Part shown: positions 21,737 to 42,738 of the stretch, in pieces
Position numbering within the stretch: the first letter of the stretch is position 1
Layout of the letters: every line of letters begins with the position of its first letter
Source: an uncultured Bacteroidia bacterium
GTDB taxonomy: Bacteria; Bacteroidota; Bacteroidia; Bacteroidales; UBA932
Assembly: GCA_902784965.1 (NCBI GenBank)
Contig: CACZWU010000009.1
Coordinates: 1 to 46,746 of the forward strand
Length of the DNA stretch: 46,746 nt
Direction of reading: 5' to 3'
Notes under the pieces: model-generated
What the model saw: only the letters and a program-made list of their open reading frames with translations
The model's database searches: none
What the model was told of the DNA's origin: nothing
Position numbers and translations under genes: made by a program

Positions 21737-21737
21737 T

Positions 21738-21968
21738 GCTTGTGCTTGGTTGCTCTGGGAGTTGCTTGTCAGACCTTCGCTTCGCTCATCCCTCCCACCG
21801 CTACGCGGCGGGCCCCTCCCGCTATCAAGCGCGGGTGCTTAGGGTCCTCCAAGCAAGCTCCCACCCGCAACTGGCGCACAAGCGAGCGAAGCGGCGGGTG
21901 TGTTTCCGGTGAAGCGACCTTTTTTCGGGAGCAAGACGGAAACCAGAGCCGCGAAGCGAGCGAAATAT
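21738..21968 (-). repeat. R1 element, copy 1 (modules A+B, minus orientation)
   Basis: About 230 bp that match R1 copy 2 end to end when read on the minus strand. Module A is 21864-21968, module B 21738-21863. Paired arms seen: GCTCTGG at 21752-21758 with CCAGAGC at 21943-21949 (ends of the element); outer arms of B at 21756-21775 and 21843-21863; P2 CCCGC 21818-21822 with GCGGG 21831-21835 around an 8-base loop; P3 CCCACCGC 21794-21801 with GCGGCGGG 21805-21812 around TAC; CACCCGC 21862-21868 with GCGGGTG 21894-21900. The one P3 mismatch is A-C on the plus strand but G-U if the minus strand is transcribed. The whole 302-bp gap to rpoD holds this, a -7-like site and a hairpin. Confidence 0.8.
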
Positions 21969-21973
21969 TTTTG
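21966..21973 (+). promoter_or_regulatory. rpoD: Putative -7 element for rpoD
   Basis: TATTTTTG matches TAnnTTTG at the edge of R1 copy 1, 65 nt before the rpoD start. A -33 match is not seen. Confidence 0.35.
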
Positions 21974-22002
21974 AAACATTCATAATCAATATTCGTATAA
22001 GT

Positions 22003-22027
22003 AAGTGTCGCGATTTTTGCGGCACTT
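22003..22027 (+). terminator. Hairpin with T-rich tail just before rpoD
   Basis: AAGTGTCGC (22003-22011) pairs with GCGGCACTT (22019-22027) through 9 bp with one G-T pair and a 7-nt loop. TATTTTT follows and the rpoD ATG is 11 nt further on. It looks like an intrinsic terminator, and could stop upstream transcription or attenuate rpoD expression, or mask its translation start. Confidence 0.5.
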
Positions 22028-22038
22028 TATTTTTCTAT

Positions 22039-26092: not shown

Positions 26093-26319
26093 ATTTTTCG
26101 CTCGCTACGCTGCTCTGGTGTTTGTCCCGCTCGCGAAAAAAAGCTCGCGGCTCCAAACACCACCCGCCGCTTCACTCGCTTGCGCCATGGCGCGGGTGGG
26201 ACATTGCTTCGAGGACCCTAACCACCCGCGGTTGATAGCGGGAGGGGCCCATGCACAGCATGGGAGGGAGACGCGAAGCGTCGGTCCGAGAAGCAATTCC
26301 CAGAGCGCCCAAGCAAGCA
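26093..26319 (+). repeat. R1 element, copy 2 (modules A+B, plus orientation)
   Basis: About 227 bp, the clearest copy. Ends: GCTCTGG 26112-26118 with CCAGAGC 26300-26306. Module A hairpin: GGTGTTTG 26117-26124 with CAAACACC 26154-26161. CACCCGC 26161-26167 with GCGGGTG 26192-26198. Module B: outer stem TTGCTTC 26204-26210 with GAAGCAA 26290-26296, a GA/GA internal loop, GGACC 26213-26217 with GGTCC 26283-26287. Inside: P2 CCCGC 26225-26229 with GCGGG 26238-26242 around GGTTGATA; P3 CCCATGC 26248-26254 with GCATGGG 26258-26264; P4 GACGC 26270-26274 with GCGTC 26278-26282. 55 of 58 bases of the module A core equal copy 4, 16 kb away. Confidence 0.85.
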
Positions 26320-26342: not shown

Positions 26343-27866
26343 ATGAGCCAATTTTTGCCGACATCGAAGAAAGAGATGGACGCGTTGGGCTGGGAGCAGG
26401 CCGACGTGATCCTTTTCATGGGCGACGCCTATGTCGACCATCCTTCGTTCGGCGTGGCCGTCATCGCGCGCGTACTCGAGGACAAAGGGTATAAGGTGGC
26501 CGTCGTGCCGCAGCCCAACTGGCGCGACGACCTGCGCGACTTCCGCAAGCTCGGAAGACCGCGCTTGTTCTTCGGCGTGGGCGCCGGCGCCATGGACTCC
26601 ATGGTCAACCATTATACGGCCGCCAAGCGCCTGCGCAGCGACGACGCCTATACGCCCGAAGGCCGCGCCGGTGCCCGCCCGGACCGGGCGACCATCGTCT
26701 ATACGAAGATACTGAAGCAGCTATGGCCCGATGTCCCCGTGGTTATCGGCGGCGTTGAAGCTTCGCTGCGGCGCGAACGGCACTACGACTATTGGGACAA
26801 CTGCATAAAGCCGCCGATCCTCGAAGAGAGCGGCGCAGATTTGCTGGTCGCCGGCATGGGCGAGATGCCCATGATCCAGGTGGCGGAGGCCTGCGAGAAC
26901 GGCACCTTCGCGCAGTTGCCCCGCATCCTTTTCGGCCCCGTGCTGACCACCGAAGAGATGGACTGGATCTACGACCTTCCGTTCACCCGGCTGCCGCACC
27001 CCCGCTACAGAGGCAAGCGCATCCCTGCCTACGACATGATCAAGTTTTCGATCACCACGCACCGGGGCTGCTTCGGCGGCTGCAACTTCTGCGCGATCAC
27101 GGCCCATCAGGGCAAGCTCATCCAGTCGCGCAGCGAAGCCTCGATCCTGCGCGAGGTCGAAGCGCTCACGCGCCATCCCGAGTGGAAGGGCACCATCTCG
27201 GACCTGGGCGCTCCGACCGCCAACATGTACCGCATGGGCGGCCGGAACAAGGAGCTCTGCGCGAAATGCCAGCGGCCTTCGTGCCTCTATCCGAACCGCT
27301 GCAAGAACCTCAATTACGACCACACGCCCCTGCTGCAGCTCTACGAAAAGGTGCTCCGCGTGCCCGGCGTCAAGCACGTGTTCATCGGAAGCGGCATCCG
27401 CTACGACCTCTTCCTCGACGCGAACGGCTTCCTCGACGCGACCTGCCGCCGCTACTTCGAAGAGCTGGTGACGAAGCACACCAGCGGCCGGCTGAAAGTG
27501 GCTCCTGAGCATACGGAGGACAAAGTCCTCGACGCCATGGGCAAGCCCTCTTTCAAGCTCTTCGTCCGCCTCGAAAAGGAGTTCCGGCGGCTCATCCGCG
27601 AAAAGGGCCTGAAATACGAGATCATCCCATATTTCATCTCCGCCCATCCGGGCTGCACCATGCAGGACATGGAGGCCCTCTCGAAGAATTCCGCCCTGCA
27701 TGGCGTGCGCACCGAGCAGGTCCAGGATTTCACGCCCACGCCCATGACCGTTTCGACCGAGATGTTCGCCACCGGCCGCGACCCGCGCACCGGCAAACAT
27801 ATCTTCGTGGAGCGCGACATCGCCAAAAAACAGCGTCAGAAGTCTTTCTTCTTCAAGAAACGATAG
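26343..27866 (+). CDS. YgiQ-family radical SAM protein
   Basis: 507 aa from ATG 26343. The N-terminal domain starts MSQFLPTSKKEMDALGWEQADVILFMGDAYVDHPSFG, typical of YgiQ. The radical SAM cluster motif is C243-x3-C247-x2-C250 in RGCFGGCNFC. A second Cys group (CAKCQRPSCLYPNRC) and VAPEHTEDKVLDAMGKPS follow, as in the family. E. coli YgiQ has a C-terminal DUF3362-like part of about 200 residues which is absent or much reduced here; the ending is a basic QRQKSFFFKKR. Reaction unknown. The frame is open back to 26118, but that part only translates R1 copy 2. Confidence 0.9.
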   Translation: MSQFLPTSKKEMDALGWEQADVILFMGDAYVDHPSFGVAVIARVLEDKGYKVAVVPQPNWRDDLRDFRKLGRPRLFFGVGAGAMDSMVNHYTAAKRLRSDDAYTPEGRAGARPDRATIVYTKILKQLWPDVPVVIGGVEASLRRERHYDYWDNCIKPPILEESGADLLVAGMGEMPMIQVAEACENGTFAQLPRILFGPVLTTEEMDWIYDLPFTRLPHPRYRGKRIPAYDMIKFSITTHRGCFGGCNFCAITAHQGKLIQSRSEASILREVEALTRHPEWKGTISDLGAPTANMYRMGGRNKELCAKCQRPSCLYPNRCKNLNYDHTPLLQLYEKVLRVPGVKHVFIGSGIRYDLFLDANGFLDATCRRYFEELVTKHTSGRLKVAPEHTEDKVLDAMGKPSFKLFVRLEKEFRRLIREKGLKYEIIPYFISAHPGCTMQDMEALSKNSALHGVRTEQVQDFTPTPMTVSTEMFATGRDPRTGKHIFVERDIAKKQRQKSFFFKKR

Positions 27867-27868
27867 CG

Positions 27869-27955
27869 GCTGGCCAAGAAATTGGGCACTTTTTATGGCC
27901 AGAGTCAGTCGGAGCCCACTTCTAGCCATGAAAAAAGGGCATATTCTTGGCCAGG
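27869..27955 (+). repeat. R2 element, copy X: two TGGCCA-ended dyads
   Basis: Two imperfect 35-bp inverted-repeat units 3' of the ygiQ-type gene. Unit 1 is flanked by CTGGCCA (27870-27876) and TGGCCAG (27896-27902). Unit 2 runs from TCTAGCCA (27921-27928) to TGGCCAG (27948-27954). The 18-bp spacer between them resembles that of copy Y. The rest of the gap to 28033 holds a T-run and a promoter. No protein-coding sign. Confidence 0.7.
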
Positions 27956-27977
27956 CGCACGGCTGCGATGATTTTTT

Positions 27978-41418: not shown

Positions 41419-41443
41419 TATTCAGGCCTGGGTGTAAGTGGAG

Positions 41444-41565
41444 AAGGAATATGTTTCGAAGACCCTAACCACCCTCGGTTGATAGAGGGAGGGGCCCGGA
41501 ATCGGCGTAGCCGATTTTGGGAAGGAGACGAGCCTTGGCGAGTCGGTCTGAGAAACATATTCCTT
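41444..41565 (+). repeat. R1 element, copy 3 (module B only, plus orientation)
   Basis: About 122 bp, filling the gap between pheT and the ubiA-type gene. Outer stem arms are 41444-41464 and 41545-41565 with 14 bp, a GA/GA internal loop, then 5 bp. P2 is CCCTC 41472-41476 with GAGGG 41485-41489 around the same GGTTGATA loop as copy 2; P3 AATCGGC 41500-41506 with GCCGATT 41510-41516 around GTA. The linker CCCTAACCACC is identical to copy 2. Nothing of module A is present here. Confidence 0.8.
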
Positions 41566-41593
41566 AGGAACTGGAGCACAGGCCGGATAGTAG

Positions 41594-42489: not shown

Positions 42490-42582
42490 GTCTGCGCTCG
42501 CTCCACGGCTCTGGTGTTCGTCCCGCTCGCAAAAAAAAGCTCGCGGCTCCGAACACCACCCGCCGTTACGCTCGCAACGGCC
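42490..42582 (+). repeat. R1 element, copy 4 (module A only, plus orientation)
   Basis: Starts 5 nt after the ubiA-type stop. GGTGTTCG 42513-42520 pairs with CGAACACC 42550-42557 (8 bp). GCCGTT 42562-42567 pairs with AACGGC 42576-42581 around an 8-base loop. In copy 2 the first hairpin is GGTGTTTG/CAAACACC, a compensated change. Nothing of module B follows; instead the sequence continues to the R2 element. Confidence 0.8.
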
Positions 42583-42647: not shown

Positions 42648-42651
42648 CTCG

Positions 42652-42738
42652 TCTGGCCATAGAAACCCCGCATTTCCTTGGCCAGAAGCCAGTTCGAGCT
42701 CATTCTGGCCATAAGAATGGCCGTTTTTCTTGGCCAGA
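42652..42738 (+). repeat. R2 element, copy Y: two TGGCCA-ended dyads
   Basis: Unit 1 runs TCTGGCCA 42652-42659 to TGGCCAGA 42679-42686, and unit 2 TCTGGCCA 42704-42711 to TGGCCAGA 42731-42738. Each unit is 35 bp with a 19-base interior that also partly pairs (AAGAA with TTCTT). The 17-bp spacer is similar to copy X. Whole length about 87 bp as in copy X. Confidence 0.75.

Follow-up and report, generated by a model that had tools for sequence, protein, structure and literature searches.

R1, a family of folded, dispersed, and insertion-polymorphic intergenic repeats in Bacteroidales

Small mobile repeats of bacteria are usually simple hairpins defined by their end sequences. According to passages of PMC3733652 and PMC6006769, REP/BIME elements are intergenic palindromes located mostly downstream of coding regions, in convergent or co-directional gaps, with uneven copy number and sometimes in inverted pairs; the REPs are palindromes of 20-40 bp, most of which carry a GTAG or CGTC tag on one side. 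ERIC, YPAL, NEMIS/Correia, and RUP are described in part of PMC2229807 as non-autonomous long stem-loops of ~100-200 bp, and empty and filled sites are reported in the same part for a Yersinia element; the words pseudoknot and covariation are absent from the PMC2229807 text. In a Bacteroidales genome, that of Porphyromonas gingivalis, the MITEs (PMC4596501) are small inverted-repeat elements.

The repeat analyzed here, R1, resembles REP/BIME in being intergenic, at gene 3' ends, in both orientations, and uneven in copy number. However, R1 is ~120-200 nt long, branched, and pseudoknotted, with variable arms and no fixed ends seen, and it was not found flanking Y1_Tnp genes (31 loci). R1 is similar to MITE-like repeats in size, in its long stem-loop, and in having empty and filled sites (at the pheT-ubiA gap, 6 of 22 genomes with an intact copy and 13 without), but shows neither a target-site duplication of 4-9 nt (0/113) nor a fixed terminal repeat. 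The P. gingivalis MITEs, as small inverted-repeat elements in Bacteroidales, are set beside R1 by description only. STAXI and other RNA candidates from comparative genomics, as part of PMC2864571 presents them, are likewise pseudoknotted and repeated and raise the same question of RNA or single-stranded DNA, whereas R1 was unmatched by Rfam models and had no constant gene neighbor in the scanned sample. R1 thus behaves like REP/BIME and MITE-type repeats yet lacks tested marks of both (an adjoining cognate RAYT gene, a short simple hairpin, and a 4-9 nt target-site duplication), and we regard it as a variant form within the small mobile repeats, with an RNA-like tertiary fold.

Within the reach of our searches R1 is undescribed; it forms a real family of repeats that are folded, dispersed, and insertion-polymorphic. 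No recognizable description of R1 was found in the literature, which is weak evidence of absence, most subscription journals lying outside the search; in the PMC2267715 text, Bacteroid-, Porphyromonas, compensatory, covariation, and pseudoknot are all absent.

R1 copies in the window and their fold

The window, i.e., the whole stretch of 46,746 nucleotides that was analyzed, contains three R1 cores as determined by a covariance-model search, one in each of copies 1, 2, and 3. The original prediction had placed four copies in one family. Two repeat families are present instead: the R1 model matches three of the copies, and the fourth is an A hairpin alone. The features are as follows.

21750-21868, minus strand: R1 copy 1 (R1 covariance model, 124 bits)
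21894-21949, minus strand: diverged A hairpin adjoining R1 copy 1 (sequence, inverted repeat I3)
26112-26167, plus strand: A hairpin adjoining R1 copy 2 (sequence, repeat D1; feet GCTCTGG ... CCACCCGC)
26192-26308, plus strand: R1 copy 2, core and inner arms (R1 covariance model, 130.5 bits, E 1.8e-36)
26204-26210, plus strand: 5' strand TTGCTTC of the outer stem P0 of copy 2, partner GAAGCAA at 26290-26296 (fold, covariation)
26213-26217, plus strand: 5' strand GGACC of P1 of copy 2, partner GGTCC at 26283-26287 (fold, covariation)
26220-26223, plus strand: 5' strand AACC of the pseudoknot stem S1 of copy 2, partner GGTT at 26230-26233 (compensated forms)
26225-26242, plus strand: hairpin P2 (S2) of copy 2, CCCGC at 26225-26229 and GCGGG at 26238-26242 (fold, covariation)
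26230-26237, plus strand: P2 loop of copy 2, GGTT+GATA
26243-26247, plus strand: conserved unpaired junction AGGGG of copy 2
26248-26264, plus strand: hairpin P3 of copy 2, CCCATGC/GCATGGG (fold, covariation)
26270-26282, plus strand: hairpin P4 of copy 2, GACGC-GAA-GCGTC (fold, covariation; weakest helix)
41439-41570, plus strand: R1 copy 3, between pheT and ubiA (R1 covariance model, 98.8 bits)
42508-42563, plus strand: A hairpin alone, without R1 core, the fourth copy of the original prediction (sequence; no R1 model match)

In antisense orientation, R1 copy 1 and its A hairpin (window 21737-22038) are flanked by genes for an HtrA-like protease and an rpoD-like sigma factor.

R1 is a hairpin of ~25 bp that encloses an H-type pseudoknot and two further hairpins, P3 and P4. 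Inside the long hairpin, with its helices P0 and P1, the order from 5' to 3' is pseudoknot S1/S2, junction AGGGG, P3, junction AGGGA or similar, and P4. In the window copies, a tandem GA internal loop is located between P0 and P1, the S2/P2 consensus is CCCNC.GNGGG, L1 is A, and L3 is GATA. For P2, the stems predicted earlier were confirmed in the sequence: copy 2 has CCCGC/GCGGG and copy 3 has CCCTC/GAGGG. The outer stem and its GA/GA loop match the description given of them. The P3 stems are present as quoted, except that of copy 1, which had been taken from the other strand and reads CCCGCCGC/GCGGTGGG on R1's strand. The predicted fold is real but was incomplete: the loop of P2 (GGTT/GCTT/GGCT) pairs with AACC/AAGC/AGCC upstream of it, forming a pseudoknot that had been overlooked.

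Fold stability was compared with 200 shuffles, giving z values of -4.50 for copy 2, -7.52 for copy 3, and -2.57 for copy 1, with the A hairpin included in the stretches folded for copies 1 and 2. For copy 1, 2 of the 200 shuffles folded equally well, and the predicted fold leaves P4 open. Covariation was then scored in larger alignments. Alignment A1 consists of 39 of the 42 core matches; left out were L039, a duplicate, L009, whose core carries an insert, and L042, for which a fully paired 3' strand of P1 was not found. Both-side changes were found at 22 of 34 pairs, and the score was 0.398 compared with 0.132 +/- 0.009 for shuffled data (0/500) and at most 0.078 in the slid-partner control. 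Alignment A4 (99 distinct copies) was fitted to a nested covariance model that does not include the pseudoknot, so its helices lean towards the nested fold of that model; here, double changes were found at 27 of 34 pairs, 94.1% of the cells were paired, and the score was 0.545 (shuffled, 0.155; slid partners, at most 0.063). P4 was the weakest helix, with 80.4% of cells paired in A4. RNAalifold, applied unaided to the 39 copies, gave 25 pairs, 17 of them with double changes, and P4 was absent. The unpaired junction AGGGG was present in 125 of 132 readable copies (of 142 collected). A G-quadruplex formed from the GGGAGGGG tracts was set aside, as the tract is interrupted in some copies (GGGAAGG).

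The 142 copies were collected by a regular expression and an arm-pairing filter, and broken copies are therefore under-represented among them; with this selection, 137 copies were parsed, of which 134 have a fully paired S1. The parse failed for 5 of the 142, and a full S1 is lacking in 3 of the parsed copies; at least L173- and L190- resemble chance matches. The forms of S1 were AGCC/GGCT (57 copies), AAGC/GCTT (36), AACC/GGTT (26), TGCC/GGCA (13), CGCC/GGCG (1), and GGCC/GGCC (1). Eight distinct S1 types were observed, 6 of them fully paired, compared with a mean of 1.5 after shuffling; 6 was reached in 1 of 10,000 shuffles. The first pseudoknot loop, L1, is 1 nt long and L3 is mostly 3-6 nt, lengths that are usual for H-type RNA pseudoknots. 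These results indicate that the R1 fold is conserved in nearly all copies examined while stem letters change. The claim that covariation reflects selection on a folded single strand was thus upheld in the larger samples (39 and 99 copies) and by the S1 forms. Furthermore, the single mismatches in usable arm pairs (109 of 142) comprised 27 G.T and 9 A.C (binomial p = 0.004), and this G.T excess suggests that one strand matters. Divided by setting, the G.T:A.C numbers were small, with 15:4 in sense tandem, 6:4 in convergent, and 2:0 in antisense tandem gaps.

The A hairpin lies upstream of R1 in copies 1 and 2, and its stem next to copy 2 is GGTGTTTG/CAAACACC. A is a repeat in its own right: a relaxed pattern detected 14 distinct copies in the scanned loci, 13 of them with no R1 core within the next 260 nt, and the three A copies of the window escaped this pattern because of their spacing. 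The feet GCTCTGG ... CCACCCGC (R1 read on its minus strand) are common to A and to R1 of the type found in the window's genome, and both feet were found in 25 of the 142 R1 copies. Among the 14 A copies, 11 have both feet when one mismatch is tolerated in the first. All loci in the sample together contained 53 distinct hairpins with these feet, with an R1 top in 32, an A top in 14, and another top in 7. The R1 and A tops look exchangeable on the common feet, which accounts for the single family of the original prediction. At L107, matched arms and the R1/A feet surround a mere remnant of the R1 5' half, apparently owing to an internal deletion. At L009, ~100 nt within the P3-P4 region of R1 belong to a different intergenic repeat module (CGCTAGCGGAGG type); the repeats in these gaps form a mosaic.

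Distribution and genomic placement

The window's own genome contained R1 at 13 places by the core pattern and gave 19 matches with the covariance model. As the original prediction had proposed, a covariance model was built and Bacteroidales genomes were searched, and R1 was matched in further genomes of the genus and the order. Because only the best candidates were scored (90 per genome for the genus, 12 for the order and the class, and 9 for the phylum), the following genome counts are lower bounds: R1 was found in 32 of the 40 genomes searched in the genus, the own genome among them (E <= 0.001; at least 421 matches, 0-45 per genome), in 5 of 295 genomes of the order (the own genome, a second from its family, and three from outside that family), in 1 of 295 of the class (own genome only; first model, stricter filters), and in 2 of 395 of the phylum (own genome and G856). 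The eight alignments from the order, two per non-own genome, kept the conserved core, and both from G360 were the most diverged; an R1 form without P4 was seen by eye in G360 and G454. The three matches in G856, of the same phylum, were weak (<=26 bits) and were discounted, the two alignments inspected being without the conserved pseudoknot. R1 was convincingly found in no searched genome outside the order.

The exact R1 pattern was found in at least 110 stretches of named genomes. Among the matches listed, the 80 titles all named Bacteroidales, Bacteroidia, Cacconaster, or Cryptobacteroides, many of them with ruminants, deer, or horse; the hosts of R1 are bacteria known from rumen and gut data. 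The exact pattern had no match in IMG/VR, and no R1 match was found in the plasmids and phages searched; a phage or plasmid source of R1 was rejected on these grounds. A search against the Rfam 15 covariance models gave no match for R1 at the gathering score, the sole match being an unrelated tRNA in L016; the original prediction had likewise not recognized the family. Copy 2 had no Rfam match at E <= 5, and one G010 copy gave two far-subthreshold matches at E <= 10.

Placement was determined for 125 distinct places, with 8 others at a locus edge and 8 others overlapping a called gene. The gaps were convergent in 37, divergent in 8, tandem-sense in 45, and tandem-antisense in 35. The tandem gaps showed no orientation preference (45 sense vs 35 antisense, p = 0.31), whereas the convergent:divergent ratio was 37:8 at R1 compared with 62:76 at R1-free junctions (Fisher p = 1.2e-5); when only gaps of >=100 nt were counted, the R1-free junctions comprised 22 convergent and 41 divergent. 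Of the facing stop codons, 92 of 154 were within 30 nt of R1, compared with 18 of 96 facing start codons. R1 is therefore intergenic, at gene 3' ends, and in both orientations, which matches the placement of REP/BIME. A T-run (>=5 T in 8 nt) behind the hairpin was found in 0/113 copies on R1's strand and 6/113 on the other strand, and an intrinsic terminator was rejected on account of this scarcity. No GC-skew bias was observed (31 of 58 long flanks positive), and a lagging-strand mechanism is accordingly not favored, local skew being a weak test. No constant gene neighbor was found, the commonest Pfam families reaching 4 of the 137 neighbors scanned.

The original prediction had left three options, namely, an ncRNA, a REP-like element, and a 3' regulatory element. 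The REP-like option fits best, as R1 is intergenic, beside stop codons, in both orientations, and species-variable, and the 3' regulatory option is weakened by the absence of both orientation bias and T-runs.

Insertion polymorphism, arms, and core exchange

At the pheT-ubiA gap, 22 genomes were compared. Six carried an intact R1, one a remnant (G027, 18.3 bits), two other intergenic DNA (G026 and G003), and 13 no element. Among the intact copies, those of G000, G023, and G017 are in sense orientation; in G014, G063, and G028 the element is inverted and the arms correspond. At this one junction, R1 thus occurs in some related species and not in others, and it flips there.

L011 has exactly the core of copy 3, and L012 has it with one change; both lie elsewhere in the genome of copy 3, and their arms differ from those of copy 3 by 11. 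In the pheT-ubiA gap of G023, G063, and G014, by contrast, the arms are 2 changes from those of copy 3 and the cores 19-27. Copy 3 therefore combines a core like those of its paralogues with arms like those of its own locus, indicating that the histories of core and arms differ. In the same comparison, in which genomes were incompletely sampled, the core nearest to that of the pheT-ubiA copy was an own-genome copy in G023 (distance 6, arms 15 apart) and in G017 (distance 4, arms alike too) and lay in another genome for G063, G028, and G014 (3 of the 6 copies). Core swapping is clear for one copy, copy 3.

G000 carries the pair A+R1 between argS and ygiQ, and G003 carries the same pair beside an inverted ygiQ. 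No R1 was seen in the rest of the 30 loci viewed (36 genomes matched), some of which covered the last 350 nt only. At L310 6737-8251 (G003), ygiQ is inverted relative to its neighbors and A+R1 lies at one edge; R1 may have mediated this rearrangement.

The arms were matched over 15-43 nt in 113 copies, figures that omit arms of <15 nt and >56 nt, 15 nt being the floor of the filter. They differ between copies in length and sequence, with no fixed ends seen in the part of the arms inspected; they are inverted repeats, and no autonomous partner was noticed in the inspected loci. Target-site duplications of 4-9 nt were found in 0/113 copies, and those of 2 nt were at chance level. A 3-nt duplication was present in 8/113 copies compared with 3.3 expected, a level reached in 7 of 500 shuffles, and a few R1 copies may have a target-site duplication of this length. 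Several copies in G010 have almost identical arms at different loci, a sign of a recent burst. Two contigs of G001 (L342 and L343, approximately the first 560 bases) open with nearly the same longer repeat containing R1. In this repeat, R1 lies between 22-bp inverted repeats, perfect in L343 and with one mismatch in L342, and the whole may be a larger composite element. By eye, no longer autonomous element was noticed around the contig-end R1 copies.

Probable mobilization of R1 and alternative explanations

R1 is dispersed, present or absent between species, and found in both orientations with one pseudoknotted branched fold. We consider it probable (~0.6) that R1 is a short (~120-200 nt) non-autonomous REP/MITE-like mobile repeat of Bacteroidales that is recognized as a folded single strand. 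A trans-acting factor would recognize this strand, either as single-stranded DNA freed in replication or transcription or as RNA, and new copies would settle just behind stop codons, where insertion would be tolerated. The long arms might stay matched through compensatory change and template switching in the hairpin, and cores would be swapped between copies by recombination. R1 keeps its RNA-like tertiary fold despite many stem changes, and the histories of core and arms are separate in at least one copy; if confirmed, R1 would allow experiments that separate selfish spread from the function of a structured nucleic acid.

It is possible, if doubtful, that R1 is instead a structured RNA that serves the cell and reached many copies by duplication, either as an ncRNA acting in trans or as an element at mRNA 3' ends by which transcripts are protected or processed. 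The 1-nt first loop and 3-6-nt last loop are the ordinary geometry of H-type RNA pseudoknots, the AGGGG junction is nearly invariant (125/132), the G.T excess is greatest in sense tandem copies (15 G.T, 4 A.C), and copies lie close behind stop codons. In addition, even copies that share an old site have near-fixed unpaired core letters, a possible sign of a cellular function and not of mobility alone. A cellular RNA is, however, at odds with the lack of orientation preference (45 sense vs 35 antisense), with the scarcity of T-runs (0/113 on R1's strand, 6/113 on the other), and with 0-45 matches per genome inside one genus beside diverse flanking genes; an intergenic element in many copies may covary strongly without being a housekeeping ncRNA. 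It is unlikely that the pseudoknotted core itself moves, as a folded RNA or single-stranded DNA cassette exchanged and flipped between locus-bound palindromic arms by a dedicated enzyme; were this the case, R1 would owe its identity as a mobile element to a tertiary nucleic-acid fold and not to end sequences. Compensated changes in a short non-nested pseudoknot are poorly predicted if the covariation is a product of template switching in a DNA palindrome and the fold is not under selection, as are the near-invariant unpaired AGGGG and the 27:9 polarity of G.T to A.C. Template switching as the only cause is thus disfavored and highly improbable, although part of PMC8794818 reports that it creates and maintains perfect stems in a single event, and the R1 arms are long, near-perfect, and different between copies. 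Template switching may act on the arms.

With regard to the mover of the REP/MITE-like repeat that we favor, 27 of the 40 genomes searched in the genus carry Y1_Tnp (RAYT-like) genes, so that the RAYT/IS200-type transposases suggested earlier are common there, but no R1 was found close to them in 31 loci. The number of these genes correlates with that of R1 (Spearman 0.55, p = 2.6e-4, phylogeny and completeness not corrected), and a passage of PMC6006769 reports a Bacteroidetes RAYT subclass, 2.6, with atypical flanking structures. Nevertheless, R1 as the REP of resident RAYT transposases is decidedly unlikely: no R1 match was found at E <= 1 in 31 Y1_Tnp loci (95,361 bases), and seven R1-bearing genomes, among them G020 with 26 R1 matches, had no Y1_Tnp match at E <= 0.001. 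At these loci (L014, L015, and L119-L147), other palindromes, simple and of 28-47 nt, adjoin the gene in 19 of 31, on both sides in 12; 9 of 31 had no palindrome and 3 of 31 no HUH frame, these palindrome counts being without chance control. A pairing of R1 with RAYT is thus unsupported at close range, despite the correlated copy numbers. Several sequence types were observed among the palindromes beside Y1_Tnp genes. Reverse transcriptase (PF00078), with matches in 12 of the 40 genomes, was rejected as the mobilizer because it was not found in the window's own genome (78% complete) or in G010 (95% complete), the genome with the most R1 matches (45).

A second small repeat was observed in the window at 27866-27958 and 42651-42737. 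It consists of paired hairpins around TGGCCA/TGGCCAG, and a similar stretch was seen by eye in G023 (L348).
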